Shown: piece after piece, positions 10,201 to 36,801 of the stretch
How the letters are laid out: each line of letters starts with the position of its first letter
Position numbering within the stretch: position 1 is the stretch's first letter
DNA from: a virus
Reading direction: 5' to 3' (one strand)
Virus record (IMG/VR): IMGVR_UViG_3300020185_000103
Location: 1 to 42,106 of that record
DNA length: 42,106 nt
The notes under the pieces: model-generated
What the model was told of the DNA's origin: nothing
Seen by the model: the letters and a program-made list of their open reading frames with translations, nothing else
The model's database searches: none
Translations under genes and position numbers: made by a program

Positions 10201-13200
10201 CTACACGATTAACTACACCATTGTCTGTTACACCATTAATTCTTAAGTCATTTATTTTGGGTCTATATGTTCTATCTTTTTGTAGTATTTGATCGTAGTC
10301 TGCATTGTAGGAAAAAAGATTTGTATCAAATAACAGTGTAAAATATTTACTAGGTTTAATAAGTGCACCAGCAATTTGACATGCAAACGCCCACTCACTG
10401 CTGCGTAACCAAGCATTTTCAACTGGACCACCGTCACCGATACGCCAACTGTTTCTATGAGCATTGTCGCCACCACTACTACTCGTAACACTATCAATAG
10501 GACTTACTAGGTTGCCTTGTGCATCAACAGGCAACATATCTAGTATGCCAGTACGTTTAATTTTAGCATCTACTGTATAAGTGGTAGACGTGCCGTCTGC
10601 ATAAATTTTACCGTCACGTAAATCTTCCCAGAGCACAGTATTACCGGCAGTGTATGGCGCTGGTCCATAACGTTGCTCCCACCAGGTGGGTTTAATATTA
10701 TATCCAAACATTTCCCAGGGGGTACTGTGTGGGGTGTCAGTATCATATAGCCAACGGTATGCCCCTCTCCAGTAACCAGGAAGTCTCCACTTATTGGTAA
10801 ATGTGGTATTAGAATAGTTCCAAGTGAAGGTATCATCGCTATTAAAGCCATTGTTGGTTGTATAGTCTAGTCTGTTCTTGTATGCCCAGCTAGCAAAATA
10901 TTTCCTATAGATGTTAACAAATGTATTTCTATCCCCTAGGGTATTTCTAAAATAGCCAGGAATAACATCAGCCCAATCAAACAAATCTCTGGTATAAGTT
11001 GTTTTTATATTATTAAAGATACGTTTTTCTAGTTCCAGGACGATATCGTCTCGCATGTCACCATATCCTACCCAGATACTTCCGTCATGCCCTTTTACGA
11101 CTGTCTGACTGGTACTGTAGCTATCGTCAGTGTATTTTTGAGGATACCACTTGGGCCATAGCCCCATCTTAGTGGGAGTAGGTGGCACAAAACTACCATT
11201 GGTATTATTATACTCTACAATTTGTAACTCATCACCCACTAGGGTAACGTAGTTTTTACTTAATTGGATAGCAATCTTGTTGGTCAAGATTGTGTAATCC
11301 TGTTCATTTACTAGTAGAATAAACTCATTATTTCTTTTAATGTATACTAGAATAGCTTGATTACTGACGGTATTTGCTTTGTACTCTGTAGTGAATTCAA
11401 ATTCTCTTTGTTTAGTATCATCTATCTGGTGATAAACTGCGTTTTTTTGACTACCCCAGGCAATCATATCCGTATAAAAGAATGGGAAAGTATCAGTCTT
11501 GGTTCCTGCCATATGGCTAATAATAGTATCCACTGCATCTTTGGGACTACGTAAATCTATATCTAAAGTGTTTATGTTATCCAAAAACTTAGTTTTAAAT
11601 CGGGTATATTCTTCCATACTATAACGCATTGCAGTTTCAAAGTTAACATCTTTGCTTGTAAGCAAGTACTGAGGAAGTATGTTGCCTGCACTATGTTGCA
11701 ATATTTTGCCAGGATATTTCTTATAGTCAATGTCACGAATATTATTTGATCCCAAGCTGTTGCCAACCAGTGTTGGAATATTTGTTGCTAATTCTGTTAA
11801 ATGGTTACGTGCCTGGCCTACAGTAATCTCAGTAAAATCTTCGTTATTAGCATTGTTTTCCAAGTTAAGTGGCACGTCGTAATAACCCAGGGAATTAACT
11901 GTAGGACTAATAACTTTGATTGTAACAACATCACCTTTATTCAGTGCATCAGTAAATGTTACAAAATATTTGTCATTAATAGTTACTTCTGTATATTTGC
12001 TGGGATCGACAAACAAATTATTTAAATAAACTTTGAGTGTGCTGAACCCGGACATTTCAGTCTTGGCACTGCCTATTTCAAAACTATAAAATTCTGTGTC
12101 GATATCATACTGGACAATTTGCCATTGTTCACTTGGGCGCATAACCTTACGCCAACCATTTTCTAAGGTACGTTTGGTAGTACCGTCAGATTGTTTTTTA
12201 AATTTGTGTACGTGTCCACTTTTAACAATTAAATTTGTAGCACCAGTGTCAGATTTAGTATACTGGAATGTGTCTTTAATATAGTTGTTTTCAAAGACAA
12301 TGTCTCCAATGGAATCAAAGTTTTTATATGTTAACGCAAATCCTAACTCGGTGTCTGCACTGCCAGTTGTAGCTCGTTTGTAGCTCAACAATTTGTTGCC
12401 GACAAATGTACTGCTTGGATATTTGGTACCATCACTGAAACTAGTGTGTGTAGCGTCGAATATATCAAACAATGGGTCCTGATTAATTTTAGTTTTTTGC
12501 TGTGCTGAAACCCAACCCGAAGTTGTATCTTTAAAATGGTATGCTTTGCCTTGTACACCCGTACCAAAGTTACTAACTAGTACGTCTCCAGGCTCAATTG
12601 TATCAATGCGTTCTAGTACAATAATTTTACTAGTAGTACTGTCGTTATCCTCATCTACTTTTTTAACCTGATAGACATTTTGTCTAGTGTCTGGGTCTTG
12701 CGTAAACACAACGGTAACACCAGGAGTCAGATTGAATTGCTCACTAAAGTATCCAACAGTGCCGTTTACATTACTAAGTGCATCCGTTTGCGTAACATCA
12801 ATCACATCAACATAACGTTTACCATTTGTACCATAGTTAAATAATTGTAGTCCTGCATCAAATTCGATAATTGGCCGTTTTGCTCTGGCAGTTTCTTCAA
12901 TTGTTGGATTGAATCCATTTAATGCCGCAGTTGCTTCAATAACTCTGCGGTGGAACCAACGGTTGTATCTGCTCCAAGCATTCAAGTCAGAGCTAGCTCT
13001 GTTAATTAATATATAATCTTGTAAAATTGGGGCGTCTTTAGTTTGCTCTAGTCCTCCGTTATCAAACGGATCACTGTCGTATCCGTTAACAAGAGTTTCT
13101 GAATACGGCTCAGGTGTTTTTAGGCTATCAACTTTGACTAGTTGAATGTTTGTGCCTACTCCCTCTACATACCATTCTCCTGCATATGTGCCTGGAATAA

Positions 13201-14671
13201 CGTCTGTGTTAAATTCTACTTTTAGCCCATTAATAAAGTTTACGCCATTGGGACTAGCATAACTGGATTGTCCTAGTATATCGTCTACTACGTTAATTCT
13301 TGCATTATTGCCAGGCTCTACTAAAACAATCTTACCAAAGCGTGTTGCGTCTATACCATCTTGGTAGAACAATGTATCTTGTATTGCTGTAATAGGCGGG
13401 ATAAGGGATAGGAATCCTTCAGCAGTTCTTTCAAACTCTCTATTACCATATTTAACGCCACTTTTGACGCCTACTTTTTTAAGTCTATCAATATCCGCGA
13501 GTCTAGTAAGTTGGATTGTGTCTGTCCCGCTAATATTAACGATGTTTACACGAAAGACACCATACCGTTCGTCAAATGTAAGTGTTGTGGTTGTATCAAA
13601 TGATCCCTGGGAGAGTGTTACTGGATCTGTGTTGCTGTCATAACCATAGCTGTCATACAAGCTGCCTTGTTCCCATTCGTCAGCATCTGGATCAGTAGTA
13701 GCAAAAATAATTGTTTTACCATCAATTTGTGTGACGCCGTCGATACCAGTATAATGCTCTGCAAAAAAATCACTAAGTACTCGGTTTTGTAATTCTTTGT
13801 ATGTGTGGTGTGTTGCAAAGTCAACTGTGTGTTGCTGTACCATTTCTACAACACGATTTTGACTATCAATAGTTGGTACTCGCCAAGTAATTGTGCCAAC
13901 TTCTGCACCATTATTTGTAACACCTACTACTTCTCTGGTGCTTACATTTCCTTGTGTAGTACTTTCTCCACTAAGCCCACGCTCAGTTTGAATCCAAAAA
14001 GGTGCGCCGTCTTGTTCTACTTCAAACGTGTATTCTCCGCCCCTAGCAAGATAAAGTGTTGGATTAGGGTTACTTGTACTGTTGTCAAATCTATAGAATG
14101 GCTCGCCAATTTTAATTTCTGTTTGCACCCCATCAAAGGGCTGCGCATCAAAGTTGGTGCTATCAAACGGATAGCGTTCGTAATTTACACTTTCCCTGAG
14201 TACTTTAAAACTATCCTGTGTGTCAACTGTACTACTAAAAACTTGTACACTATCTGGACCCTCTGGTAGCCAAAAATATTCACCATAGTTAACTAACTTG
14301 TCGTAATCAACAAAGCTACCCCAGTTGTAATAGTCTTGAGCAAATAAGTCTGTAGTTTTTGTACTGTTTCCATTGTAGTAATTTACTGCATTCAGCATAT
14401 CTGTGTACATGTGTACTGAATCGATCTTTTTATTACTATCTTTATAAACTACTGCTGGCTCTAACTGAAAATTTTGCCGTTCAACAGTGGTCTCTTGCAG
14501 ATAACCATCACCAACCACATAACCAGCAGAATTTTTCCTACCTATATAGCTATTGATCTTTACAGGCGCTGGTTCGCTTATCAGCTGATCAAGCGTGGCG
14601 TTAAGGAATTTTTTATTCTTACTACTCCTGAAAATTTCAGGCAGTAGTGTAGAACTTTTTCTAGTAGCCAT
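1235..14671 (-). CDS. Giant (4478 aa) virion structural protein, probable baseplate wedge/fibre component with FG-GAP propeller
   Basis: This single uninterrupted frame follows gp6 with a TAATG overlap, so it is translationally coupled to the wedge gene. The N-terminus (LPEIFRSSKNKKFLNATLDQ, then IGRKNSAGY and QLEPAVVYKD) matches, from memory, a conserved large structural protein of marine T4-like phages. It lies where T4 has gp7, which is only about 1030 residues. Visible modules are: beta-sandwich 'DGST..Y..' repeats throughout; a CBM5/12-like segment near 1825-1855 and another near 3647-3700; about seven FG-GAP-type repeats near 2225-2860 (for example FGYSLAISNDDRFLFVGSPG and FGHSIAVDAIGQTLVVGAP); and paired GTGYTSNP/GSGYTKTP repeats near 3550-3620. 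No enzyme motif or membrane segment was seen. A baseplate-anchored, surface-exposed adhesin is my inference. Confidence 0.75.
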   Translation of the reverse strand: MATRKSSTLLPEIFRSSKNKKFLNATLDQLISEPAPVKINSYIGRKNSAGYVVGDGYLQETTVERQNFQLEPAVVYKDSNKKIDSVHMYTDMLNAVNYYNGNSTKTTDLFAQDYYNWGSFVDYDKLVNYGEYFWLPEGPDSVQVFSSTVDTQDSFKVLRESVNYERYPFDSTNFDAQPFDGVQTEIKIGEPFYRFDNSTSNPNPTLYLARGGEYTFEVEQDGAPFWIQTERGLSGESTTQGNVSTREVVGVTNNGAEVGTITWRVPTIDSQNRVVEMVQQHTVDFATHHTYKELQNRVLSDFFAEHYTGIDGVTQIDGKTIIFATTDPDADEWEQGSLYDSYGYDSNTDPVTLSQGSFDTTTTLTFDERYGVFRVNIVNISGTDTIQLTRLADIDRLKKVGVKSGVKYGNREFERTAEGFLSLIPPITAIQDTLFYQDGIDATRFGKIVLVEPGNNARINVVDDILGQSSYASPNGVNFINGLKVEFNTDVIPGTYAGEWYVEGVGTNIQLVKVDSLKTPEPYSETLVNGYDSDPFDNGGLEQTKDAPILQDYILINRASSDLNAWSRYNRWFHRRVIEATAALNGFNPTIEETARAKRPIIEFDAGLQLFNYGTNGKRYVDVIDVTQTDALSNVNGTVGYFSEQFNLTPGVTVVFTQDPDTRQNVYQVKKVDEDNDSTTSKIIVLERIDTIEPGDVLVSNFGTGVQGKAYHFKDTTSGWVSAQQKTKINQDPLFDIFDATHTSFSDGTKYPSSTFVGNKLLSYKRATTGSADTELGFALTYKNFDSIGDIVFENNYIKDTFQYTKSDTGATNLIVKSGHVHKFKKQSDGTTKRTLENGWRKVMRPSEQWQIVQYDIDTEFYSFEIGSAKTEMSGFSTLKVYLNNLFVDPSKYTEVTINDKYFVTFTDALNKGDVVTIKVISPTVNSLGYYDVPLNLENNANNEDFTEITVGQARNHLTELATNIPTLVGNSLGSNNIRDIDYKKYPGKILQHSAGNILPQYLLTSKDVNFETAMRYSMEEYTRFKTKFLDNINTLDIDLRSPKDAVDTIISHMAGTKTDTFPFFYTDMIAWGSQKNAVYHQIDDTKQREFEFTTEYKANTVSNQAILVYIKRNNEFILLVNEQDYTILTNKIAIQLSKNYVTLVGDELQIVEYNNTNGSFVPPTPTKMGLWPKWYPQKYTDDSYSTSQTVVKGHDGSIWVGYGDMRDDIVLELEKRIFNNIKTTYTRDLFDWADVIPGYFRNTLGDRNTFVNIYRKYFASWAYKNRLDYTTNNGFNSDDTFTWNYSNTTFTNKWRLPGYWRGAYRWLYDTDTPHSTPWEMFGYNIKPTWWEQRYGPAPYTAGNTVLWEDLRDGKIYADGTSTTYTVDAKIKRTGILDMLPVDAQGNLVSPIDSVTSSSGGDNAHRNSWRIGDGGPVENAWLRSSEWAFACQIAGALIKPSKYFTLLFDTNLFSYNADYDQILQKDRTYRPKINDLRINGVTDNGVVNRVEGYNQFLENYMTGYGKNKSDLQTRIQNLTQNLAYKVAGFTDKSQLKVIIEVASPSSVNQNIFLPDENLAVHLQESQPLDRVFYSGVNIIKRVNGYEVKGFDIDDPVFRIIPSQRSQNVRLKTIGSRTFTLYDDFKREIALVPYNTLFTSINQVADFLNAYNRYLNYKGITFESQNSNGKLLDFNTGIDEFGLWIEQNWEPGTVLSISPGLQQLTIDRPLTTVADLSKTIALRNNNSAPIKVKDYNVERIDNKTIVSVNNENEYMYSAKLDPVQYEHVLVFDNITIFNDIIYQPSLGNRQERLKIVGTRSGNWNGTLQAPGSTLSQDTVDVWQSQQDYKRADTVSFRNKIYVASKDHTGSITFDNANWLLVKNMKTGLLQNTASKANSFQSFYDTDSINLESATDKAGKGQIGFRNREYLENLGLDDTSQIKFYQGMLKNKGTTAALDKLIKAKLTNLEQEINVYEEWGFRVGEYGSISSNQVIELEIDEANAQKNPFNLQLIDNGEAVDADVIGVIEKNIYKKPDNYTKNIFLDRATGAVKNDLLSAGFPRLDDVDLTVFSIDELETELTNKIDTIGRADKIWVASRNSTWDMLRVSETAVNIITVEQNVAPQITFSTDGNHGLVKDDYIIVKGSNIVKGCYKITSVQSPTQFTVIDENLTVDAIDNTLLPLFKLESVRYATPNLISTTNPLYGWAPNEKIWVDSTSTGKWAVFNKRNPYDANTQISANSVSASDQQGASVDVSADGLTFISGSPGRTTVVNFAKDENGTFNETGEKTISSISSTLGGFADSVAYGKEWVAVGAPGTDTNRGAVFIYNRTTTGDINIKQAIVPSIGAQNDEFGYSLAISNDDRFLFVGSPGSDEVYMYSLTTHAVTDDNIATLTCDGSTSTYSLGFTPVGGDELLVQDRNGKTYLNVTDYTVSGSNITFISVPVASLVVVVRRSSHFKFLHRISGTASSRFGHSIAVDAIGQTLVVGAPHDSSSVNKAGSISIYHQEIERFIGDGTTTDFTTTGTIPDNMEFIEVNGTTMLAATGAFGGFTSDSSANRYRRSGNTISTQFIPSAGDIIEVYIGQWNKVQDSAQGDDYGLLASELKSDSELFGWSVGIDTYGAIIAVGAPGEDSVNVNTGSVYVFIDEARRFGNTTTKATSFDTDASSTIFINNVEVALTNTSDPATVKATIDAKNISEVTTSVAGNLLTISSTNKTTNTKLSVRPGTGADYESTSKLNFEPFVMTQRFDNPNGSDNENFGLDVRFDRFTPTGNNAAQTLVVSSDKATTLLPTRFDVVSTIETTTFDNGSTQYIENVNESGAAYVYALLEPAGVAGVNNSPLYAYGQQLRSTTIDHFDSFGCAIAVLDNRIYVGSKNDDQFKANGGSTYEFTNTTRTGVWNTLRTQDDKVDINSVNRVITYDKRNQQIISFLDTIDIAKGKLPGRAQAELNFVTEYDPAIYSIGNSARLQVNANNAWNNEYVSKTWWDITQCRILDYEQGELAYRRNNWNAFFPGSEIVVCEWVESQVLPSEYVANGGEGVPLYPDDSAYSQNLQFNSISNTTKTLYYYWVTNKDSYPNNEVRSISTNGIQAQINNPITAGIKFISLISNNSIMLNNIKPDLNDKNTIVAINYDKLRNDGVLHSEFDLVAEGDPDQIIPNRIWNKIVDSMSGADIQSNIIPDPTLSAGEKYGIGIRPRQTMFVNRQEAAKVMVDFVNKEFAKLPIVRNNVITGFTVSDPIPTKNSGEWNQKVADITTRDYLNTEILSAGYLVLVEQDTNFDNQWTIYILEGEGDQKSWTLRKIQGYDTARYWDYVTWYATGYDVHTVPNYQVTNEPQLLTLTQATEGQIAKVLSNDDGNFSLFCKKGANWDEVVIERGTIKLRDTIWDYSNATYGSYVGYDNSNFDFGQFDRIPQVELRQLLNTIKNDIFINEQRLLFNTLFFRLIEYSLHEQNFGVDWVFKSSFIKTIHKQRDLNQYPTYKNDNSLFIEQFIQEVKPYHTKIREYITAYDGNDNFDGDITDFDVHTFYDEQLGYFRKPSGDYQGDYITRIAGPNKPWADNYGYYLNTVEIYAAGTGYTSNPEVTVSLPDLVGGTQATVQAISNGDSIVSAQVLNKGSGYTKTPTITIDTGTAGTGCVLLPRIKNDTHREFDTTLKFDRITYSSNIKTWSANTAFAYEDLVVYQNPDTKVQELYQVHVTDGTTTGATFSTEDSTGTVVFVAYADENVASAADRIEAYYVPLTGMIGDDLALLQEGTDYTSTRVGGVGFDKEPGFDSANFDTLGFDDFEIDVDGLRVLSGQSAFDTTISSTFKDLALGTRPEDINIDGGAFVDEYNSHAPEEVVPGRVFDTLDMEIYTDPSDDFEADGNSFPITYRTYLGDGSTKRYNYAGDIQADQVTLVIAYLGSTPERNFTLDYETREIVFDTAPAANSNIFIYGYGSTGEKLTHEETIIADGSTLAYALAIPFTRVAQMQVLVDGQETTNFTFTEVDGRTVVSFISIVPGNGQELHFLTSSLAAGRLPFTKPVQKTFTLDGSNRTISIGETVQYGEPLEGNIIVELNGIRLTPTNASHYTLDGSTTYYRAPISKGETIANTIDGQIGVAHIKKSTNQTINLNRYQDYNVTTLAEAFDVTADSSVTTVDADSVTADQDGAGTDYRAVQLNSALTSGDSLIVYYNNGEYTTDGTNLYINEEISISNGDELVVTMFSNHDPLRIQTQVFKGLGTDITIVAFDYDGIAYDSNEYDGLTEAGTAQARYRLDRTLTATSNLNYLWVTVNGTKLHPGQYGVDGTGRLDLSNFDGVTLDADSIITVTSISENIVQPTTGFRVFYNMLGETEYFRLCADTSTKLSVELKPADTKIYVKDASVLTTVTPTSKFPGVIFLGNERITYWEIDTTNNYVTNIRRGTGGTRFATEHRVGTTVVNSSEDERLPQTNTHTNTWYDLGTGTAANGLGLQQSAGLNAQFLKDCEAIIPNYLVELSADSYIVDDYVAEGYIEEQQ

Positions 14672-26030: not shown

Positions 26031-27041
26031 ATGAACTTATTTAAACGAGCAATATTCTTCACGGATATTCATTTTGGTTTGAAAAGCAATTCACGCACAC
26101 ACAACCAGGATTGCTTAGACTTTGTAGATTTTGTTATCGAGCAGGGTCGTGCAAATAATTGTGAAACTTGTGTATTTTTGGGTGACTGGCATCATAACCG
26201 TGCTAGTATCAACATTAGTACACTCAACTACAGTATACGTGCATTTGATCGACTAAGTGAAGAATTTACGCAGGTTGTATTTCTTCCTGGCAATCATGAC
26301 GAGCACTATCGCGATACTAGAGAAATGAATAGTGTAGCCTGGCTTAAAAAATATGATAACATTAGGCTGTATGATGATATTACAGTAGAAGATGATGTTT
26401 GTGTTATGCCCTGGCTGGTTGGCAAAGAGTTTGCTCAGGTGTCAAAAATTGAATGCAAATATATGTTTGGGCATTTAGAATTGCCTAGCTTTTATATGAA
26501 CGCAATGGTGCGCATGCCTGATGTGAGTGATCTTAAGCGTGAGGATTTAAAAAGTGAAACGGTGTTTACTGGTCACTTCCATAAACGTCAAACAGCAAAA
26601 AATATTACATACATTGGTAATAGTTTCCCACACAACTACGCGGATGCTGGTGATGACGCTCGCGGCGCGATGGTGCTAGACTGGGGCGGTGAGCCTGAAT
26701 ATATTGAATGGCCCGACGCCCCAAAGTATCGCCGCTTTTTATTAAGTGATGTACTTGAAAATACAGACACTGTTTTGAAGCCAAACATGTATTGTCGTGT
26801 TGAACTAGACGTTGACATTAGTTATGAAGAAGCAAATTTTATTAAGGAACAATTTATTCCAGAATTTGGATTACGAGAACTTAGTATTATCCCCAGGGTA
26901 GGCTCAGAAGAGCATGCTCTTAGTTTTGAAGGAGAAGTAAACTTTGAAAGCGTAGATAGTATTGTCACTTCACACCTAACACAATTGGACAGTCCGCAGT
27001 ATGACAAAAGTCTTATGTTAGATATTTACAGGAATCTATAA
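26031..27041 (+). CDS. 47: Recombination endonuclease subunit gp47 (SbcD/Mre11-like phosphoesterase)
   Basis: gp47 is the nuclease subunit of the gp46-gp47 complex that resects DNA ends for recombination-dependent replication. All calcineurin-like phosphoesterase motifs are present: D12-x-H14 (FFTDIHFG), G51-D52-W-H54, G87-N88-H89-D90, GHLE at 147-150 and GHFH at 181-184. The length of 336 residues is close to T4 gp47 (339). It starts 3 bases after the gp55 stop, and its own stop overlaps the next ATG (TAATG). That next gene is a radical SAM enzyme, not gp46, which is the unusual point here. Confidence 0.95.
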   Translation: MNLFKRAIFFTDIHFGLKSNSRTHNQDCLDFVDFVIEQGRANNCETCVFLGDWHHNRASINISTLNYSIRAFDRLSEEFTQVVFLPGNHDEHYRDTREMNSVAWLKKYDNIRLYDDITVEDDVCVMPWLVGKEFAQVSKIECKYMFGHLELPSFYMNAMVRMPDVSDLKREDLKSETVFTGHFHKRQTAKNITYIGNSFPHNYADAGDDARGAMVLDWGGEPEYIEWPDAPKYRRFLLSDVLENTDTVLKPNMYCRVELDVDISYEEANFIKEQFIPEFGLRELSIIPRVGSEEHALSFEGEVNFESVDSIVTSHLTQLDSPQYDKSLMLDIYRNL

Positions 27042-28576
27042 TGCCACAGATTAACTTAGTAGAGTTTCATACCAACGGAAAAAACTGGTTATATAACTCT
27101 ATTAAGGCTCATAAACAAGAGAATATCCCTGATGATTTTCGACTAGAAGTCTTGTACAATGAATATGACATATTTAACGATTTGACTAACCCAGGGATAG
27201 CTCTTGTTGCATTGCACGAAATACTGTCACTGCTAGATTTCCCTTTATTTTTTGTTACCATAACAACTACCAATACTAATATTCACCCACAATTATTGTA
27301 TTGTGTTGATCATTTTACTAATGAAATAGATTCTATTTCATATAACATAATACCCGGAACTTGGGAAAGTCGTGAAAATGATAAGGACACACTATGTATA
27401 TTGCCATGGATTCACACGTATGTTAACCCACAGGGACAGGTTGGTCCATGCTGTGAGTTTAACGATAAGTTCGAGTTAGGCAACATTAACGACGACAGTT
27501 TAGAAAATATTATCAACAACGAGCCATACAAGAAGTTACGATTAGACTTATTGAATAAAAAGCGTCCTGACATTTGCAATAATTGCTGGTCAAGAGAAGA
27601 CAGTAATCTGACTAGTAGACGATTAGATAGTAATCGTAATTGGAAAAAGTTTATGGATATTCCAACTAAGCAAACTAGCCCAGACGGAGAGTTTACAAAT
27701 TTTAAATTAAAGCATTTAGATATTAGATTGAGCAACGTCTGCAATTTTATGTGCAGGATGTGTAGTGGAAAGTTTAGTAACAAAATAGCAAATGAAGAGA
27801 ATAGGTTATACGGCTCTACTACATATTTGGATAACTTAGTTATCGACAAGAGCACGTTGTTAACTTATATAGAGAACAACTTAGATCATATAGAAAGTGT
27901 CTATTTTGCAGGCGGTGAGCCAATCTTAAATCAAGAGCATTATAAAATACTTGATATCTTCATCGATAATAAATTAGATGTGGCGGTTACCTATAATACA
28001 AACTTCAGTATGTTGCGTTTTAAAGATTATGACTTACTGGATTACTGGAGTAACTTTACTAATATTGAGATTGGAGCCAGCATAGATGTATTTGGAAAAC
28101 AAGCAAATTACATCAGACACGGTGCAGAATACGAGGTTTTAGAACAAAACTATCATAAAATAAAAGACCTTCCAAATATAAAATTTAAAATAACAAGCAT
28201 CTTGCATCTAATGAATGCTTATAATCTGCCTGTGCTACAAAAACACTGGTTAACAAACTTAGGGTTATCTGCATCTAACATGAGGGTTAATACTGTTATA
28301 ACCCCTAATCATTTGCAGCTAACAGTTCTTCCAGAACAATTTAAACAGGAATTGAACCTGGTGTATGAAGATCATATTTCCTTCTTGTCATCGTTAAATG
28401 ACACAGATCACTTAGTGTCCTACTGGACTAAAGCATTAAAATTTATGAATAGCAGGGATGATAGTTATATGTTGCCGGAATTCTTTAGGCTCAATGATAA
28501 CAAAGATCGTGCTAGAAATCAAAATTTTGAAGAGTTTTTTCCAGAGTTTTCGTTATTGCGTTCTCACTCAAAATAA
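27041..28576 (+). CDS. Radical SAM enzyme with N-terminal SPASM/twitch-like Cys cluster
   Basis: A 511-residue protein inserted between gp47 and gp46. The radical SAM 4Fe-4S motif CX3CX2C is at C234, C238 and C241 (CNFMCRMC), followed by GGEP at 291-294 for SAM binding. Ahead of this core, C119, C137, C138, C179 and C182 (LPWIHTYVNPQG, GPCCEF, CNNCWSRE) form a SPASM/twitch-like auxiliary cluster site. This N-terminal placement is typical of proteins annotated 'twitch domain-containing radical SAM' in phages and cyanobacteria. Residues 1-110 are a separate domain I do not recognise. It is coupled to gp47 by a one-base overlap and ends 13 bases before the chosen gp46 start. Reaction and substrate are unknown; SPASM-type relatives often act on peptides. 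Confidence 0.85.
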   Translation: MPQINLVEFHTNGKNWLYNSIKAHKQENIPDDFRLEVLYNEYDIFNDLTNPGIALVALHEILSLLDFPLFFVTITTTNTNIHPQLLYCVDHFTNEIDSISYNIIPGTWESRENDKDTLCILPWIHTYVNPQGQVGPCCEFNDKFELGNINDDSLENIINNEPYKKLRLDLLNKKRPDICNNCWSREDSNLTSRRLDSNRNWKKFMDIPTKQTSPDGEFTNFKLKHLDIRLSNVCNFMCRMCSGKFSNKIANEENRLYGSTTYLDNLVIDKSTLLTYIENNLDHIESVYFAGGEPILNQEHYKILDIFIDNKLDVAVTYNTNFSMLRFKDYDLLDYWSNFTNIEIGASIDVFGKQANYIRHGAEYEVLEQNYHKIKDLPNIKFKITSILHLMNAYNLPVLQKHWLTNLGLSASNMRVNTVITPNHLQLTVLPEQFKQELNLVYEDHISFLSSLNDTDHLVSYWTKALKFMNSRDDSYMLPEFFRLNDNKDRARNQNFEEFFPEFSLLRSHSK

Positions 28577-28589
28577 AGTACAATTACAT

Positions 28590-30347
28590 ATGTTTAAACT
28601 AAACACACTAACCGTACGGAACTTTATGAGCGTGGGCAATCAAACCCAGGCTGTAGACTTTGACCGTAGAGACTTAACTCTTGTGCTGGGTGAAAATTTA
28701 GATCAAGGAGGTGACGACTCAGGCGCCAGAAATGGCACGGGTAAAACCACAATCATCAATGCACTCAGTTATGCTCTCTACGGTCAAGCATTAACTAATA
28801 TTAAAAAAGATAACCTAGTTAATAAGACCAACGGCAAGTCTATGATGGTTACTGTTGACTTCGAGTTACACGGCATCACGTATCGTATTGAACGTGGTCG
28901 TAAGCCCAACGTACTCAAGTTTATGGTTGGTGAAGTTGAAACTGAAGAACAACAAGGCGACAGTAGAGAAACGCAACACTATATTGACAAATTATTGCAC
29001 ATGAGTCATGAGATGTTTAAGCATCTTGTTGCGCTTAACACTTACACGCAACCATTCCTTAGTCTAAGTGCAAATGATCAGCGTGATATAATTGAACAGA
29101 TGCTGGGCATCACTCTGTTAAGTGAAAAGGCAGATGCACTTAAAGAGCTGTGTAAAGAAACAAAGAACATGATTACTGAAGAAGAGTATCGTGTTAAGGC
29201 AGTTGAAGACGCAAACAAGCGAGTTGAAGAGCAGATTGATAGCCTTCGGAAAAGACAGAAGCTCTGGCATGCAAAACGCGATGAAGATGTTGCTAGCCTT
29301 AAGGACGGTATTGATGGTCTAAGTCATGTTGATATTGACAGCGAGCTTGCTAATCATAAGTTACTTGACGGATTTTACGAAAATCAAAAGAAACGGCAAG
29401 AAGCAGAGCGTTGGATTGTTGGAATTGACACTGATAATACTAAGCAAGAAAAGTTAATCCTACGTCTAGATAAAGAAATTGCACTACTTGAAGAACATAA
29501 ATGCAGTACGTGTGGCCAGGAAATTCATGACGGCAAGCAGGAAGAAATTTTGGCTAGTAAAGTAGCGACAAGACAAGAAGCAACTATGTCTATACTTGCT
29601 AATGAAACGCAACGTGCGGATCATTTAGAAATATTAAGTGAAGGTGTGTTGGGAGTTGCTCCAAAAGTATTTTATGATACAATTGATGATGCATATAACC
29701 ACCGTAGTAGTTTGGATAGTTTAGCAAAAGAGCTAGAAAATCGCAGTAATGAAGCTGATCCATACGCAGAACAAATCGTGGAGATGACACAAACTGGCGT
29801 TGAGCCTGTTGACTGGAATACAGTTAACGAACTAGTACGTATACGAGATCACCAGGAGTTCTTGTTAAAACTATTAACAAACAAAGACAGTTTCATACGC
29901 AAACGTATTATTGATCAGAACTTGCAGTTCTTAAATGCTCGATTAACTCATTATCTTGACAAGATGGGATTACCTCATTCAGTTCGTTTTATGAACGACT
30001 TAGGTGTGGAAATACAGGAACTGGGACGGGATCTAGACTTTGACAACCTTAGTAGAGGAGAGCGTAATAGACTTATTTTAAGTTTAAGTTGGGCGTTCCG
30101 AGACGTTTGGGAAAGCCTATATCATCCTATCAACTTGTTGTTTATTGACGAAGTTGTTGACAGCGGAATGGACGTTAGTGGAGTTGAGAGTGCACTAGCA
30201 GTACTTAAACAGATGGCAAGAGAACGTAACAAGAGTATTTGGCTTGTGTCACACAAAGATGAACTAACTGGTAGAGTTAACAATTTGCTCAAGGTTGTAA
30301 AAGAGAATGGATTTACTAACTATGACACTGATGTTGAGATGGTATGA
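28590..30347 (+). CDS. 46: Recombination endonuclease subunit gp46 (SbcC/Rad50-like ATPase)
   Basis: SMC-type ATPase that partners gp47 in DNA end processing. Walker A is at about 45-53 (GARNGTGKT), a zinc-hook CSTC at 305-308 sits between coiled-coil arms rich in Lys and Glu, the ABC signature begins at about 487 (LSRGERN), Walker B is near 515-520 (LLFIDE), and an H-loop histidine follows (LVSHKDE). The 585 residues match T4 gp46 (560). I chose the ATG at 28590 because MFKLNTLTVRNFMSVG is the true family N-terminus. An in-frame ATG at 28458 would add 44 unrelated residues read across the 3' end of the radical SAM gene. The stop overlaps the next ATG (ATGA). Confidence 0.95.
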   Translation: MFKLNTLTVRNFMSVGNQTQAVDFDRRDLTLVLGENLDQGGDDSGARNGTGKTTIINALSYALYGQALTNIKKDNLVNKTNGKSMMVTVDFELHGITYRIERGRKPNVLKFMVGEVETEEQQGDSRETQHYIDKLLHMSHEMFKHLVALNTYTQPFLSLSANDQRDIIEQMLGITLLSEKADALKELCKETKNMITEEEYRVKAVEDANKRVEEQIDSLRKRQKLWHAKRDEDVASLKDGIDGLSHVDIDSELANHKLLDGFYENQKKRQEAERWIVGIDTDNTKQEKLILRLDKEIALLEEHKCSTCGQEIHDGKQEEILASKVATRQEATMSILANETQRADHLEILSEGVLGVAPKVFYDTIDDAYNHRSSLDSLAKELENRSNEADPYAEQIVEMTQTGVEPVDWNTVNELVRIRDHQEFLLKLLTNKDSFIRKRIIDQNLQFLNARLTHYLDKMGLPHSVRFMNDLGVEIQELGRDLDFDNLSRGERNRLILSLSWAFRDVWESLYHPINLLFIDEVVDSGMDVSGVESALAVLKQMARERNKSIWLVSHKDELTGRVNNLLKVVKENGFTNYDTDVEMV

Positions 30348-31222
30348 GCAGAGAAATAAAAGTATTACATTTGGAAAGCACTGACGTATGCCAAGCAGCA
30401 TGCCCGTTATGTGCTCGTGAAACTAATCCAGAGTTTAATAAAAACATAAAGAATCACTTACGTATTGATCAGTTGCTAGAGCATTTTGACGACAATGCTA
30501 TTGCTAAATTAGACAAGGTGTTTATGTGTGGCAATTATGGTGATCCAGTTGCTGGGAAGCATACACTAGACATTTTTAAATACGTCCGTAATATTAATCC
30601 TAGTATAACACTTGGTATTAACACAAACGGTGCGTTGCAGACTACTACATGGTGGTCTGAAGTAGGCAAATTATTTAATAACCCTAATGATTATGTGGTG
30701 TTTAGCATTGACGGACTAGAAGACACAAACTCTATATATCGTGTAAACGTTATATGGGAAAAAGTTATGAACAATGTCAAAGCATTTATTGATGCTGGCG
30801 GAAATGCTCACTGGGATATGCTAATTTACCGGCATAACCAACATCAGGTTGATGCTGCAGAGCAGTTATCCCGAGACTTGGGGTTCTCATGGTTTCGGGC
30901 CAAAGTTTCAAAAAGAACCCCTATTGCTGGATTAGAACAGCCTGATGATTGGGCTGATCCATTGCCAAATACTGGCCCAATTAAATGCCATGTTTTAAAT
31001 GAACAGAGTGCATATATTGACGCACAGGGCAGATTATATCCTTGTTGCTGGTTAGGAAATAGTTTAGATGTTTTAATTAGTGATATCAGTGAAGTAGAAA
31101 AAACTTGGAATACAGATAATCCAAATCCTACTTGTAAGTTAGCATGTTCTACTAGTAACTCTGTAAGTAGATTTACAGATCAATGGAGAAAAGAGATCCA
31201 AATAATGAAAGACGAATCATGA
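30344..31222 (+). CDS. Radical SAM protein (second of three), SPASM-like C-terminus
   Basis: 292 residues. The cluster motif CX3CX2C is at C16, C20 and C23 (CQAACPLC), right at the N-terminus. The usual GGEP is replaced by CGNYGDP (62-68). NTNGA (93-97) and FSIDG (120-124) follow at the positions of later SAM-binding strands. A C-terminal SPASM-like set is visible: C215, C234, C235, C264 and C268 (YPCCWLGNS, CKLACS). It overlaps gp46 by four bases (ATGA) and overlaps the next radical SAM gene in the same way. Sequence parallels with that neighbour, including GDP, INP, TNG, TWW, DG and YRVN in order, show the two are paralogues. Substrate unknown. Confidence 0.82.
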   Translation: MSREIKVLHLESTDVCQAACPLCARETNPEFNKNIKNHLRIDQLLEHFDDNAIAKLDKVFMCGNYGDPVAGKHTLDIFKYVRNINPSITLGINTNGALQTTTWWSEVGKLFNNPNDYVVFSIDGLEDTNSIYRVNVIWEKVMNNVKAFIDAGGNAHWDMLIYRHNQHQVDAAEQLSRDLGFSWFRAKVSKRTPIAGLEQPDDWADPLPNTGPIKCHVLNEQSAYIDAQGRLYPCCWLGNSLDVLISDISEVEKTWNTDNPNPTCKLACSTSNSVSRFTDQWRKEIQIMKDES

Positions 31223-32253
31223 GTAACTTAGCTCTCGAGCATTGGCACATTGAAGTAAGTAGTATTTGTACTTTACAATGCCCAAGATGTACTCGTGCAG
31301 AAGTTCCTGAAACACTGTTAAATCGTAGTTTAGATTTAAAGTTTTTTCAAGAGCAGATTGGTCAAGAAAGAATATCTCAAATAAAAAAAATTAGTTTCTG
31401 TGGCGATGATGGTGATCCGATTTATGCTAAACAGTTTATTCAAATTGTTGAATGGATTAAGAGAATAAATCCAGCTATACAGTTACTAATTATAACAAAC
31501 GGAAGTTATAAAACAGAAACATGGTGGAAGTCACTATCAGATATACTTAATGAACATGACGAGATCCACTGGAGTCTAGATGGCTGGGACCAAGAAAGCA
31601 ATAGTAAGTATCGTGTTAATTGTAATTGGGAAAGTATAATATCTGGATTAACTACTTTTGTCAAACACAACCAAGTAACTTATACTGTAATTGCATCAAT
31701 AGCATTTAGATTTAATGAACTGGATCTTGAAAATATACACAATTTAGCAAAAATACACACTATTGACTGCTGGCAACTTACTAAAAGTACAAAATTTGGC
31801 AGTAAATATCCTGACGCATACGGCAGTAACGACTTGCTTGAGCCACTTAACTCAGATCTTGTTGCTGACGGTCATCGATTTGAAAGAGTCCAAACTATAC
31901 TAAGCGACAAAGTTCGGCCTGGATCAGATCTCAAAGAACTATTTTGGAATCGTGCTTTAGAACTAAATCAAAGCAATGAGTACCCTGCTTTATGTTATAT
32001 AGGAAACAAGGGAGTGTTTTTAAAAGCAACAGGAGAATTTTATCCGTGTTGCTGGACTGCACTACGTTATCCACATAATAAAAAATGGAATGATCTTGCA
32101 GAAACTAAGTTTAACATGTATAATAATACATTAGATAAAATACTCCAAGACGAGTGGTGGCAAACAGGTTTTAAGAAATTTGATAATTTAGAATGCCAAA
32201 CAAAATGTATTAAAAGTAAACTTTTAGATAAATCTCACGTAACTGAGTGGTAG
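31219..32253 (+). CDS. Radical SAM protein (third of three), paralogue of the preceding gene
   Basis: 344 residues from the ATG at 31219, which overlaps the previous stop as ATGA. An upstream in-frame ATG at 31183 lies within the previous gene and adds 12 polar residues, so it is less likely. CX3CX2C is at C17, C21 and C24 (CTLQCPRC), and CGDDGDP at 61-67 stands in for GGEP. TNGS and LDGW follow. A C-terminal SPASM-like cysteine set (LCYIGNKG, YPCCWTALRYP, CQTKC) is present. It shares order and spacing of motifs with the preceding radical SAM gene, consistent with tandem duplication. It is followed by a 48-base gap and then the GIY-YIG gene. Function unknown. Confidence 0.82.
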   Translation: MSNLALEHWHIEVSSICTLQCPRCTRAEVPETLLNRSLDLKFFQEQIGQERISQIKKISFCGDDGDPIYAKQFIQIVEWIKRINPAIQLLIITNGSYKTETWWKSLSDILNEHDEIHWSLDGWDQESNSKYRVNCNWESIISGLTTFVKHNQVTYTVIASIAFRFNELDLENIHNLAKIHTIDCWQLTKSTKFGSKYPDAYGSNDLLEPLNSDLVADGHRFERVQTILSDKVRPGSDLKELFWNRALELNQSNEYPALCYIGNKGVFLKATGEFYPCCWTALRYPHNKKWNDLAETKFNMYNNTLDKILQDEWWQTGFKKFDNLECQTKCIKSKLLDKSHVTEW

Positions 32254-32301: not shown

Positions 32302-32739
32302 ATGACAAATTGGATAAAGTCTGACGGGGTAACATTAACTGAAATTACAAAACTTCCTGAAGATGTAGTAGGGTTTGTTTACTTGATTACTAACAATACT
32401 AATGGCAGACGATACATTGGCAAAAAACTGGCACAATTTAAGAAAACGAAACCACCGCTTAAAGGCAAAAAAAACAAACGGCGCACTACTGTAGAATCAG
32501 ACTGGCGCGATTATTATGGCTCATCAGACGCACTAACGGCAGACATCGAAGCACTCGGCAAAAGCTGCTTTAAACGTGAGATACTCTACTATTGTTACAG
32601 TAAAGGAGAGTGTTCTTACATTGAAGCAAGAGAACAGTTTAGGCATAAAGTATTAGAATCAGATGAATGGTATAATGGACACATACGTGTTCGTGTTCAT
32701 CAGAGTCAAAAGATACTTACAGAATCAAATCAAGACTAA
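32302..32739 (+). CDS. GIY-YIG nuclease-like protein
   Basis: A 145-residue protein with the GIY-YIG core: FVY at 25-27 and YIG at 38-40 (GFVYLITNNTNGRRYIGKK), then a basic stretch (about 42-61), WRDYYGSSD (68-76), REIL (92-95) and a candidate catalytic glutamate in YIEARE (107-112). This fits a minimal GIY-YIG domain. Members are known as homing endonucleases (T4 Seg family) and in repair or host-DNA degradation. No DNA-binding extension is visible, which argues against a full homing enzyme. It precedes a hairpin-rich non-coding region. No clear Shine-Dalgarno; the 48-base leader is A+T-rich. A mobile role is possible but not shown. Confidence 0.7.
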   Translation: MTNWIKSDGVTLTEITKLPEDVVGFVYLITNNTNGRRYIGKKLAQFKKTKPPLKGKKNKRRTTVESDWRDYYGSSDALTADIEALGKSCFKREILYYCYSKGECSYIEAREQFRHKVLESDEWYNGHIRVRVHQSQKILTESNQD

Positions 32740-33283: not shown

Positions 33284-33535
33284 ATGTATATGGATGCTAA
33301 AGGAATGTATATGGATACTATAGATAAAAGAACAAAAAGCGAAGTTGAAGCTGCTTTTATTGAATTTGTTGACAAAATCCAGGACTTAGGATTTAAATTT
33401 GATTTATTTGATAAGGTAGAACTCACGTATATCAAGGGTGATGCAGTCTTAAGCCCACATAGCATAGGCAATAAACTTACTTTACGTGCTGAAGAGTACG
33501 TATCAAGTGATAATAAAAACCCCCCGACCACTTAG
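33284..33535 (+). CDS. Small protein of unknown function with duplicated start region
   Basis: Up to 83 residues; I do not recognise the family. The first 42 bases are a near-perfect duplication of a 21-base unit, giving MYMDAKG-MYMDTID. Each copy carries GGA six to seven bases before an ATG (33290 and 33311). The second copy has the stronger AAAGGA site, so the functional start may be 33311 (74 residues). The body is a helix (KSEVEAAFIEFVDKIQDLGF) followed by short strands (KVELTYIKGDAV) and an acidic/polar tail. There is no signal peptide or membrane segment. It ends tail to tail with the minus-strand gene, with a 4-base overlap. Last gene of the plus-strand operon. Confidence 0.5.
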   Translation: MYMDAKGMYMDTIDKRTKSEVEAAFIEFVDKIQDLGFKFDLFDKVELTYIKGDAVLSPHSIGNKLTLRAEEYVSSDNKNPPTT

Positions 33536-33744
33536 AAGAACGGCAATCCGCTCTTCTTGGTAGTTTCAAGATTATCTTTAATAATTTCTTCTATAATTGG
33601 AATATCGTTTACACCTAGATTCAGTAGCTCGCTGTAACTGAGACCGCCCCGCATGTACCAGCATGCCTCCAAGAGCCTCTTCTTAAATTTTCTCGTATCC
33701 TGATCATAACCATCCAGTAATTTCTGGATTTCGTCAGAGCTCAA
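33532..33744 (-). CDS. -1 frame extension of the gp26-like protein, probably made by frameshift
   Basis: A 70-codon frame from TTG at 33744, lying two bases past the gp26-like stop and in its -1 frame. There is no ATG and no Shine-Dalgarno before the TTG (upstream TCCGTATCCTGACC), so independent initiation is unlikely. The frame is open upstream through the slippery site, giving a predicted fusion of 302 gp26 residues, then RIRILT, then these 70 residues, about 378 in all. The sequence includes ACWYMRGGLSYSELLNLG and ends TTKKSGLPFF; I recall similar short ORFs downstream of gp26 in marine T4-like phages. It would be the minor, extended isoform, as in lambda gpG/gpGT tail chaperones. Confidence 0.65.
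   Translation of the reverse strand: MSSDEIQKLLDGYDQDTRKFKKRLLEACWYMRGGLSYSELLNLGVNDIPIIEEIIKDNLETTKKSGLPFF
33534..33557. terminator. Hairpin at the convergent gene junction, possible terminator
   Basis: AGAAGA-a-CGG (33534-33543) pairs with CCG-c-TCTTCT (33548-33557) around a CAAT loop, with one internal mismatch. It sits exactly where the plus-strand operon and the minus-strand gp26-type genes end against each other. On the minus strand it is followed by GGGGGG and TTTTTATT about 13 bases away, so a weak terminator is possible. On the plus strand there is no U-run. Confidence 0.35.
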
Positions 33745-33771
33745 GGTCAGGATACGGATTCGAAAAAATTT
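33694..33771 (-). promoter_or_regulatory. Predicted programmed -1 ribosomal frameshift signal
   Basis: On the minus strand AAATTTTTTC (33771-33762) contains two overlapping slippery heptamers in the gp26 frame, A_AAT_TTT and T_TTT_TTC. After a 5-base spacer (GAATC) comes the arm CGTATCCTGA (33756-33747), which pairs perfectly over 10 bp with TCAGGATACG (33703-33694). Inside its 43-base loop a second hairpin forms: ATCCAG (33729-33724) with CTGGAT (33717-33712), loop of six. Slippery site, spacer and nested stem match known -1 frameshift elements. The zero-frame stop (TGA 33749-33747) lies within the stem. Confidence 0.8.
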
Positions 33772-34667
33772 GATTGGTCAAACGTAAATGGTGTTGTATA
33801 ACTGTGCTGACAGTCAGGACACTGTGTGGGGATGTCTTTTTCAGGCACGCCGTCGTTAATTTCCTTCTGATGTTTCTGGACAACATCAATGATTTTCCTG
33901 TCAGCACCCTCAATAAACTCATTAAGGAACAATCTGTCAGATACCAGGGTTCCATCCGGCATTTCAATATACTCTACAGTTTCTGCCATCTGTCGGACGT
34001 GTAGTCCAGTAAGTTTGGAAAAAACTTCATTAAATTGTTTGAGTTTTTCTTCTTCAGTTAAATCAGTAGCATTAACAACTGCAAGCATGCGTTGTTGTTC
34101 AAACTGTTCCATGTTATTGGAATTAATTGCACGATATGTTGCAGGTTTAAGTTTTACTCTTAGATCTCGGTATTCAGTCATATGGTCATAACCAGATATG
34201 TCTACTTGCATGTCAATAAATCTGCGTAAATCTATCTCGTATTCGTTTGTTTCACTACAACCAGGGCATGCACTGGTGTATTCCATCTGTTCGCCATAGC
34301 TGGCAATACGGATACCTATAAGAATAACATCAAAGTCACAAACTGGTATTTCCCAGGCATCTTTAATATTTGGTATACAATGCTCAATAACATCTACTAC
34401 TGCCTGACCATTTAGCAATGCATCAGGACTTTTAAGTATAAGTTCGTCTTTGGTGCTCATTGCCAGTACTGGTAGTTCGCCATTAGCTGGCATATCAATG
34501 CTACCAGGTTTCCAAAATTTACCCTTGCTGGGTAAACTAAGGTAAATCTGTGGTGTTCTCATATATCCACTAAGTGGATTACCAGATTGCTGTGGTTGCA
34601 TTTGTGCTCGTTGCAGAGTCTCCTGCATAACTTTTAGTTCTTCTGGTGTGGGGGATTCTATGCTCAC
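33747..34667 (-). CDS. 26: gp26-like baseplate/tail assembly protein (T4_baseplate family)
   Basis: 306 residues. The central segment (PQIYLSLPSKGKFWKPG, then ELPVLAMSTKDE and CDFDVILIGIRIASYGEQME) and the paired CxxC motifs, C134/C137 (CPGC) and C283/C286 (CPDC), match the T4 gp26 / T4_baseplate family. The cysteines probably bind zinc. T4 gp26 (208 residues) is assigned to hub assembly. A poly-Gln/Pro-like linker precedes the domain at about 20-35. The ATG at 34667 is served by a TATAAATA late octamer 43 bases upstream. The C-terminus carries a -1 frameshift signal at codons 300-302, so a longer isoform is expected. It is divergent from the tape-measure-like gene, which fits a tail assembly chaperone. 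Confidence 0.78.
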   Translation of the reverse strand: MSIESPTPEELKVMQETLQRAQMQPQQSGNPLSGYMRTPQIYLSLPSKGKFWKPGSIDMPANGELPVLAMSTKDELILKSPDALLNGQAVVDVIEHCIPNIKDAWEIPVCDFDVILIGIRIASYGEQMEYTSACPGCSETNEYEIDLRRFIDMQVDISGYDHMTEYRDLRVKLKPATYRAINSNNMEQFEQQRMLAVVNATDLTEEEKLKQFNEVFSKLTGLHVRQMAETVEYIEMPDGTLVSDRLFLNEFIEGADRKIIDVVQKHQKEINDGVPEKDIPTQCPDCQHSYTTPFTFDQSNFFESVS

Positions 34668-34743: not shown

Positions 34744-36801
34744 TTGGCAGTCACAGTAGATATTCCAGGAGTTGGAACAGTTGTTGCAGATAATGCTGCT
34801 CAAGATAGCACTCTTAGCAGTATTTTAGCTGCCATTAAGTCACAATCTGGTGATGGCGGCGCCGCTGATAGTCAGGGTGTGCAAGCACTTAACTCACGCT
34901 CACGACAAGCAGGAAGCAGTATAACCAAACTATCAGGTAGTTTTGGTGGACTAAGTGAGACTGTGGCTGCTACCGCAGGCGGAATGTCTAGGGTAGGCCG
35001 TGGTATGTCCAGCCTAATGGACTCCATGACCCGGTCTGCTAGCAGATTTGGCAGTATCACAGGCGAAAGCATGGCACAGTCCATGGGAGAAATTAACCGT
35101 GTGATGAGTTCGGCTGCCCGTGCAATACCAGGTGTCGGCGCGATCCTCGGTCCCCTAGCAGCTGGTGTGGGACTCATAAGTGGTGCTATGGCCAAGCAGA
35201 TGGATGCATATAATACCGCAGCTCAGAGTGGGTTTAGTTTCGGGTATAGCATGGATAACATGCGTACCATTGCAAACGATGCTAATCTGTCTATGACTCA
35301 GCTTACCAACGTAATGCAAAAAAGTAGCAGTGCTATGTCATTATTTGGTGGTGGCACTACTCAGGGAGCCAGACAGTTTGCCAAACTAAACAAAACTGTG
35401 CAAACAGACGTTGGCGGTGCATTGTTAAGTATGGGCGTAGGATTTGAAGAGCAGGGTGTAAGAACTGCTGATACTATTGAACGATTAATGTTAGCTGGTA
35501 TGAGTATGGACGAAATCGCCAGAAGTGGCGACATGGTAGCCAAAGAAACCCTGAAACGAGTAGGAATAGAAAGTCAGTTAGCTAAAATTAATGGCACCAC
35601 ACTACAGCAAGAGCGAGAAAAAACAAAAGCAGCTCAACAAGACGCTACGTTACAAATGACTCTACATGGACTCAAGGGTAAGGAAAGGACCCAGATGAGG
35701 GATTTATACAATCAAATGGAAGAAACAGCACCTGGTATGGGAAGAATGGCTCTAGAATTTCATAAATTTGGTACGATTACTTCAAAACAAAGTGCTCAGC
35801 TAACGCAGATGTATCCCACTATGACCAAAGAAATTGAAAATTATACAAAAGGAATAAAAGCCGGCACTGACACTAGAAGTATTACAGAATTTCTGGCTAG
35901 TCTTGATAAAAGTGCTATTGACAGAGAAACGGCATCCGCCGCTGATTTAGGATCGCAATTGGCCCTCGTGGGTCACAGCGCCGGCGGCCTGTCCGAAACA
36001 CTTCAAAAATCCTTTTTAGGAATAAAAAAACTAGGTACACAATTAGGTCCAGAAGGTGCTCTTAATAAAGTTATCCAAGACCACACTGAACTTATGAAGG
36101 ATGCTGGTAAAGTTACAACCGCTATGATGAACCATGCGAAGATGCTGCATGATACTGGTGTTGAATTAAGCAAGGCTATGACAGCCGCTATCGATGGACC
36201 TATGGGCGATCTGGTTAGGAAAGCTAATTTAGGGATGCTGACAATAATGAAACTGACCGCAGAGGGATCTGGGGTGATTGTTGAGTCTATTAATAGCCTA
36301 TTGAAGAAGCTTCCAGGTTCTTCAAATGTCTTTACTCCAACAGCAACGACTACAAATGATTCCGATGATGCAGATGCAGCAGACAGTGGTACTCCAGAGG
36401 CAACACGGCGCACGGGGTCACTGGGAGCAACTGGTAAATTACTGGAAGACTTTGGTAGTGGTACACGAGTAATGCTACACGGCAATGAAGGAGTCATAAC
36501 AGAAAACCAAATGTCCAACATGTTTTCCAATGTAAACGCTTTTAGAGAAGGCACCTTCAGCGGGATGGCAGACCAAATGTCTAAAGTGATGCAAGCGATC
36601 AAAGATGGCGCCACAACAGAAGAGACTATGGGACAAATAGAACAAATCGTTCCAAGTACCAATGTTGTACATCTGTCAAGCCAGGACAGAGAACTACTAA
36701 GCGAAATTGCTGCAGGCAATAGTATGATTGCTCAAAGTGTTAATAAGGTTGGTATGCGGCAACTAGAAGCCCTTGATGAAGTTAAAATGAACACAGGTTA
36801 A
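34744..36801 (+). CDS. Probable tail tape measure protein (gp29 role)
   Basis: 685 residues starting at TTG 34744, with AGGA 8 bases upstream and no nearby in-frame ATG that keeps the N-terminal MAVTVDIPGVGTVVAD. The protein is Ala/Gly/Ser/Met-rich and mostly helical. It has one hydrophobic segment at about 120-142 (AIPGVGAILGPLAAGVGLIS) and a long helical centre, followed by an Asp/Ala/Thr linker near 535-560 and a C-terminal helical domain. This is the usual look of tape-measure proteins, and the length suits a T4-sized tail (T4 gp29 is 590). It neighbours the gp26-like gene with the frameshift signal, the classic chaperone/tape-measure pairing, though here divergent. Assignment rests on composition and context. 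Confidence 0.55.
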   Translation: MAVTVDIPGVGTVVADNAAQDSTLSSILAAIKSQSGDGGAADSQGVQALNSRSRQAGSSITKLSGSFGGLSETVAATAGGMSRVGRGMSSLMDSMTRSASRFGSITGESMAQSMGEINRVMSSAARAIPGVGAILGPLAAGVGLISGAMAKQMDAYNTAAQSGFSFGYSMDNMRTIANDANLSMTQLTNVMQKSSSAMSLFGGGTTQGARQFAKLNKTVQTDVGGALLSMGVGFEEQGVRTADTIERLMLAGMSMDEIARSGDMVAKETLKRVGIESQLAKINGTTLQQEREKTKAAQQDATLQMTLHGLKGKERTQMRDLYNQMEETAPGMGRMALEFHKFGTITSKQSAQLTQMYPTMTKEIENYTKGIKAGTDTRSITEFLASLDKSAIDRETASAADLGSQLALVGHSAGGLSETLQKSFLGIKKLGTQLGPEGALNKVIQDHTELMKDAGKVTTAMMNHAKMLHDTGVELSKAMTAAIDGPMGDLVRKANLGMLTIMKLTAEGSGVIVESINSLLKKLPGSSNVFTPTATTTNDSDDADAADSGTPEATRRTGSLGATGKLLEDFGSGTRVMLHGNEGVITENQMSNMFSNVNAFREGTFSGMADQMSKVMQAIKDGATTEETMGQIEQIVPSTNVVHLSSQDRELLSEIAAGNSMIAQSVNKVGMRQLEALDEVKMNTG

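Follow-up and report, generated by a model that had tools for sequence, protein, structure and literature searches.

The short tail assembly chaperone of phage lambda, gpG, is accompanied by a minor form extended in the -1 frame, gpGT (PMC5009743), while gp26 and gp51 of T4 are described as hub assembly chaperones (PMC3004832). The concept of a frameshift from TAC-N to TAC-NC is attributed to Vladimirov, Gautam and Davidson (2022, Virology 566:9-15) in two papers through which that work is cited here (PMC10885494; PMC12846349). According to these citing papers, poly-T is a known -1 signal in T4-like TAC-N genes (PMC12846349), and some T4-like phages carry short and fused long TAC genes instead of frameshifting (PMC10885494). 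The same arrangement, with GTTTTT as the slip sequence, was reported in the Vandenendeviridae, represented by phage Adele (PMC12846349), where TAC-N has its poly-T -1 site close to the 3' end, all relatives keep the -1 frame open, and the downstream ORF is misannotated as hypothetical. An earlier note on the DNA analysed in this study knew of no described frameshift for gp26 of T4-like phages; as far as the citing papers report, it had already been published for the TAC-N gene class, poly-T sites included. Since TAC-N frameshifting is published, the gene described below is regarded as a well-supported further case of a known mechanism.

The window analysed here is a stretch of viral DNA of 42,106 nt (IMG/VR record IMGVR_UViG_3300020185_000103). 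As summarized in Table 1, its minus strand contains a gene for a 306-aa protein, which was found to match PF12322 at 1.5e-16 (61 bits against a cut-off of 24.5, Pfam) and phrog_150 at 4.8e-18 (PHROG). In addition, comparison of the zero-frame family profile with the gp26 family profile using hhalign gave 97%. These matches corroborated the gp26-like assignment of the earlier note, and its minus-strand coordinates all agreed with the sequence, including those of the 5-base spacer, the perfect 10-bp stem and the nested 6-bp hairpin. By analogy, the product of the 306-aa gene would be the short form, TAC-N, of a T4-like tail assembly chaperone pair made by -1 frameshifting, and we hold this reading as a whole with high confidence.

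Table 1. Coordinates of the chaperone locus and its divergent neighbour in the window.
Feature	Position	Strand	Basis or remark
306-aa zero-frame product, putative TAC-N	33747..34667	(-)	T4 gp26/gp51 family, PF12322 T4_baseplate; phrog_150
-1 frame extension, putative TAC-C, 78 residues and stop	33532..33768	(-)	Conserved and open up to its end, or to the contig end, in all loci
Slippery heptamer T_TTT_TTC	33762..33768	(-)	In-frame in 101/101 loci, 89/89 distinct proteins
Overlapping heptamer A_AAT_TTT	33765..33771	(-)	Present in the window, not conserved
5-nt spacer GAATC	33757..33761	(-)	Read from the sequence
5' arm of predicted stimulatory stem, CGTATCCTGA	33747..33756	(-)	Perfect 10 bp with 33694-33703
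3' arm of predicted stimulatory stem, TCAGGATACG	33694..33703	(-)	Complementarity, and compensatory changes at five pairs across relatives
Nested hairpin	33712..33729	(-)	33729-33724 pairs with 33717-33712; seen in window sequence and fold
Divergent neighbour, 685 aa, candidate tape measure protein	34744..36801	(+)	Positional conservation

The comparison covered 101 loci including the window, corresponding to 89 distinct proteins and reaching down to about 28% identity. A scan of IMG/VR with the window protein retrieved 11 loci, with identities of 95, 76 and 54%, the best 80 of more than 590 matches were kept from a scan with the alignment, and nine jumbo phages from an annotated phage collection (L013-L021) were included. 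When IMG/VR was searched with T4 gp26, near-identical T-even phages and one more distant phage were recovered, and nothing else.

The minus-strand sequence from 33771 to 33762, AAATTTTTTC, contains two overlapping zero-frame heptamers, A_AAT_TTT and T_TTT_TTC, and no other X_XXY_YYZ heptamer was present in the 306-codon gene. The earlier note had proposed both as slippery heptamers. T_TTT_TTC was found in the zero frame in all 101 loci checked (the window and the best 80 of the more than 590 IMG/VR matches among them), whereas A_AAT_TTT was absent from many of them. Alignment of the junction in relatives, to which the note had pointed, likewise showed T_TTT_TTC and the -1 frame to be conserved and the stem to be covarying, A_AAT_TTT again being the exception. 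Because A_AAT_TTT is not conserved, T_TTT_TTC appears to be the functional site family-wide, the overlapping heptamer being most readily read as incidental or auxiliary. Relatives without the heptamer but with a good ATG and a Shine-Dalgarno had been named as evidence that would speak against frameshifting; every one of the 101 loci checked keeps the heptamer.

Throughout these loci, T_TTT_TTC sits 1-11 codons ahead of the zero-frame stop, the position of which is variable. The codon before FF specifies N, S, D, H, T, Y or A, yet ends in T in all loci checked, compared with a T frequency of 36% at third positions gene-wide, and FF was likewise invariably encoded by TTT-TTC. Conservation of FF by itself was considered as the cause of the T run and was ruled out by this invariant third base together with the TTT-TTC choice. 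At the equivalent FF, T4 gp26, which does not frameshift, reads G_TTC_TTT, and its long form has a gene of its own.

The -1 frame was open through the slip site and up to 33532 on the minus strand. In the window, TTG codons were the only -1 starts before the conserved M of WYMRGG, and no Shine-Dalgarno was found at these TTG starts, which reproduced the description of the -1 ORF in the earlier note. Together, the zero frame and the -1 extension amount to about 378 aa; the 306-residue protein and minor isoform of about 378 residues that the note had predicted agree with the comparative evidence. An open -1 extension was found in 101 of 101 loci checked (again with the best 80 of the more than 590 IMG/VR matches among them), measuring 72-79 codons wherever the contig covers its end, and a few contigs stop inside it. 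Retention of both the heptamer and the -1 ORF in all 101 loci greatly exceeds chance. The TAC-C of the window reads FFRIRILTLSS...WYMRGG...KKSGLPFF, and the motif order of the family is FFRxRLL...WYMRGG...NLETTKKSGLPFF. In the -1 reading of the loci checked, FFRxRLL was kept almost throughout, and the WYMRGG and NLETTKKSGLPFF blocks were kept in most loci, less so in the jumbo phages. The zero-frame tails differ among loci (FFG*, FFESVS*, FFVQSF*, FFGFSFSLPNQKK*). The extension was predicted to be all-helical in a confident model (pLDDT 89.7), and PDB fold searches with both predicted models gave no match below E = 0.4 and matched no solved chaperone.

T4 gp26 and gp51 each match PF12322 end to end, gp51 having 48 extra C-terminal residues. 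The fused profile of the window family aligned with gp51 end to end (81%), and the profile of the extension alone matched the gp51 C-terminus weakly (1%); when the extension was compared with T4 gp51 or gp26 by single-sequence profile, no useful result emerged, and family profiles were needed. The short and long forms fit a TAC-N/TAC-NC pair, by analogy with lambda gpG/gpGT. The T4-like pair likewise belongs to the gp26/gp51 family of PF12322 and comprises a short and a long form, although in T4 itself each form has its own gene (26 or 51) and no slip is used. The 2022 abstract of Vladimirov and colleagues is said to state that frameshifting is conserved in several T4-like groups and that T4 uses genes 26 and 51. 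The Vandenendeviridae, for their part, are a different phage family with GTTTTT, whereas the window family has T_TTT_TTC_G and a covarying stem.

The 85 nt after the slip site of the window were predicted to fold at -24.7 kcal/mol (z = -4.6), and none of 200 shuffles was equally stable. Across the loci, the 80 nt downstream of the slip site gave a mean fold z of -3.27, compared with -0.11 in control windows from the same genes (p = 1e-30). In a search covering stems that start 2-12 nt after the heptamer, an uninterrupted stem of at least 7 bp was present in 80 of 88 loci, as against 34% of control windows. The stem signal was weak in a minority of loci, and the close relatives L006 and L010 had weak folds. 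The position of the 5' arm was nearly constant, while the 3' arm occupied several positions across loci, with partner sums of 79 in 31 loci, 72 (the window's own) in 8 and 47 in 8, and smaller groups at 59 and 41. In alignments composed only of IMG/VR loci and the window, compensatory changes were observed at five pairs in each of two tested stem registers, and the covariation score of these registers was reached by none of 500 shuffles. These compensatory changes are better evidence for the stem than the percentage paired, which is biased upward because class members were chosen for pairing in that register.

These distinct partner positions raise the possibility, which we put forward tentatively and at somewhat less than an even chance, that the same stimulator repeatedly arose anew within a broad clade of marine T4-like and jumbo phages, its 5' arm staying in place and its 3' partner taking distinct lineage-specific positions (sums 79, 72, 47, and probably 59 and 41). 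The 5' arm would then be fixed because R-x-R-L-L coding is needed right after the slip. No description of a stimulator with a fixed 5' arm and a shifting 3' arm was found in the literature examined, in which Vladimirov et al. (2022) was represented by citing papers; a stem of this kind would be a new detail of the frameshift signal.

The locus thus displays the features of a -1 frameshift, namely a conserved in-frame heptamer near the ORF end, a conserved open -1 frame and a downstream RNA structure, and three other origins of its layout were weighed against it. Two ORFs in adjacent frames look like a frameshift error, as would result from sequencing or from degradation of a gene into one broken ORF. 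The same layout, however, recurred in isolate phage genomes as well as in dozens of assemblies made independently; since independent genomes share it, an assembly error is excluded, and we give this origin a negligible probability. Production of the long form by transcriptional slippage on the T6 run would agree with the six-T homopolymer present in all loci checked. Six T is nevertheless short for efficient polymerase slippage, the run always reads TTTTTTC in one frame, and an RNA stem with compensatory changes lies downstream at ribosomal spacing, all of which make a transcriptional origin highly improbable.

The -1 ORF could also be a separate small gene whose translation restarts where that of the gp26-like gene terminates (termination-reinitiation coupling). 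Several annotators indeed call a separate gene for the -1 half, an ATG shares bases with the zero-frame stop or lies right next to it in 121Q, Phosso, Atu_ph07, XbC2 and some contigs, a minority in which such coupling is conceivable, and the ATG located at most 4 codons from the slip site in 12 of 89 could be used as well. Reinitiation would, however, leave the poly-T site without a need for conservation, and the -1 coding (FFRxRLL) is conserved upstream of any possible start. Moreover, no ATG occurs in the first 36 codons in 19 of 87 loci, the window offers TTG only, and in PA5oct none of ATG, GTG and TTG occurs ahead of the conserved C-terminal part. Because only 5 of 87 loci offered a start accompanied by a Shine-Dalgarno-like motif within the first 36 codons, we consider reinitiation improbable.

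The -1 programmed frameshift predicted in the earlier note is favoured by the conserved slip site, the open and conserved -1 frame and the covarying stem, and it is very likely, judging from these sequence comparisons, that the gene makes a short and a minor, approximately 378-aa long chaperone form by -1 frameshifting at T_TTT_TTC. The occurrence and frequency of slippage, like the chaperone role, are inferred. In the proposed mechanism, most ribosomes would produce the 306-aa short form, TAC-N, while a minority would slip by -1 at U_UUU_UUC, where the tRNAs on UUU and UUC would re-pair with UUU and UUU, aided by the mRNA stem beginning 5 nt downstream. After the slip, 76 residues past FF would be read in the -1 frame to give a TAC-NC of roughly 378 aa with a helical domain added at its C-terminus. 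The analogy to the lambda gpG/gpGT pair suggests that the short form may coat the tape measure protein and that the long form may in addition recruit the tail tube protein; both would be absent from the virion.

In the jumbo phages L013-L021, the -1 half has been annotated as a hypothetical protein of its own, in many cases begun at an internal ATG (GAP32_242, CBB gp249), and in PA5oct it is without annotation; this is a systematic misannotation. In jumbo and marine T4-like phages, the small ORF that annotators call hypothetical or overlook would accordingly be the second half of a tail assembly chaperone. Production of both forms from a single gene in relatives would also support the view of T4 26 and 51 as a short/long pair split in two, and the loci offer a large natural alignment for the study of frameshift-stimulator evolution.

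In lambda, the G/GT genes immediately precede the tape measure gene and share its strand, whereas the candidate tape measure gene of the window is divergent from the chaperone gene. This neighbour is conserved, about 700 aa, with a hydrophobic segment, and its relatives occupied the same divergent position in 38 of the loci checked (the best 80 of the more than 590 matches among them). Pfam and PHROG scans of it gave no tape-measure match, and we infer that it is the tape measure protein.

Elsewhere in the window, a single ORF of 4478 aa at 1235-14671 (-) adjoins a gp6-like baseplate gene, and the part encoded by 1235-4000 gave no Pfam match. Three radical SAM ORFs, two of them with SPASM matches (27041-28576, 30344-31222 and 31183-32253, all (+)), flank an SbcC/gp46-like gene at 28458-30347 (+), an unusual density for a phage. 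The ORFs at 27041-28576 and 28458-30347 overlap by 119 nt, and the true start of the gp46-like gene may be further in. The ORF at 32302-32739 (+), with a single small ORF between it and the chaperone gene, was revealed to encode a SegE-like GIY-YIG homing endonuclease family protein (PF19835, 3.6e-36), and segE of T4 likewise lies near the gp25/gp26 region.
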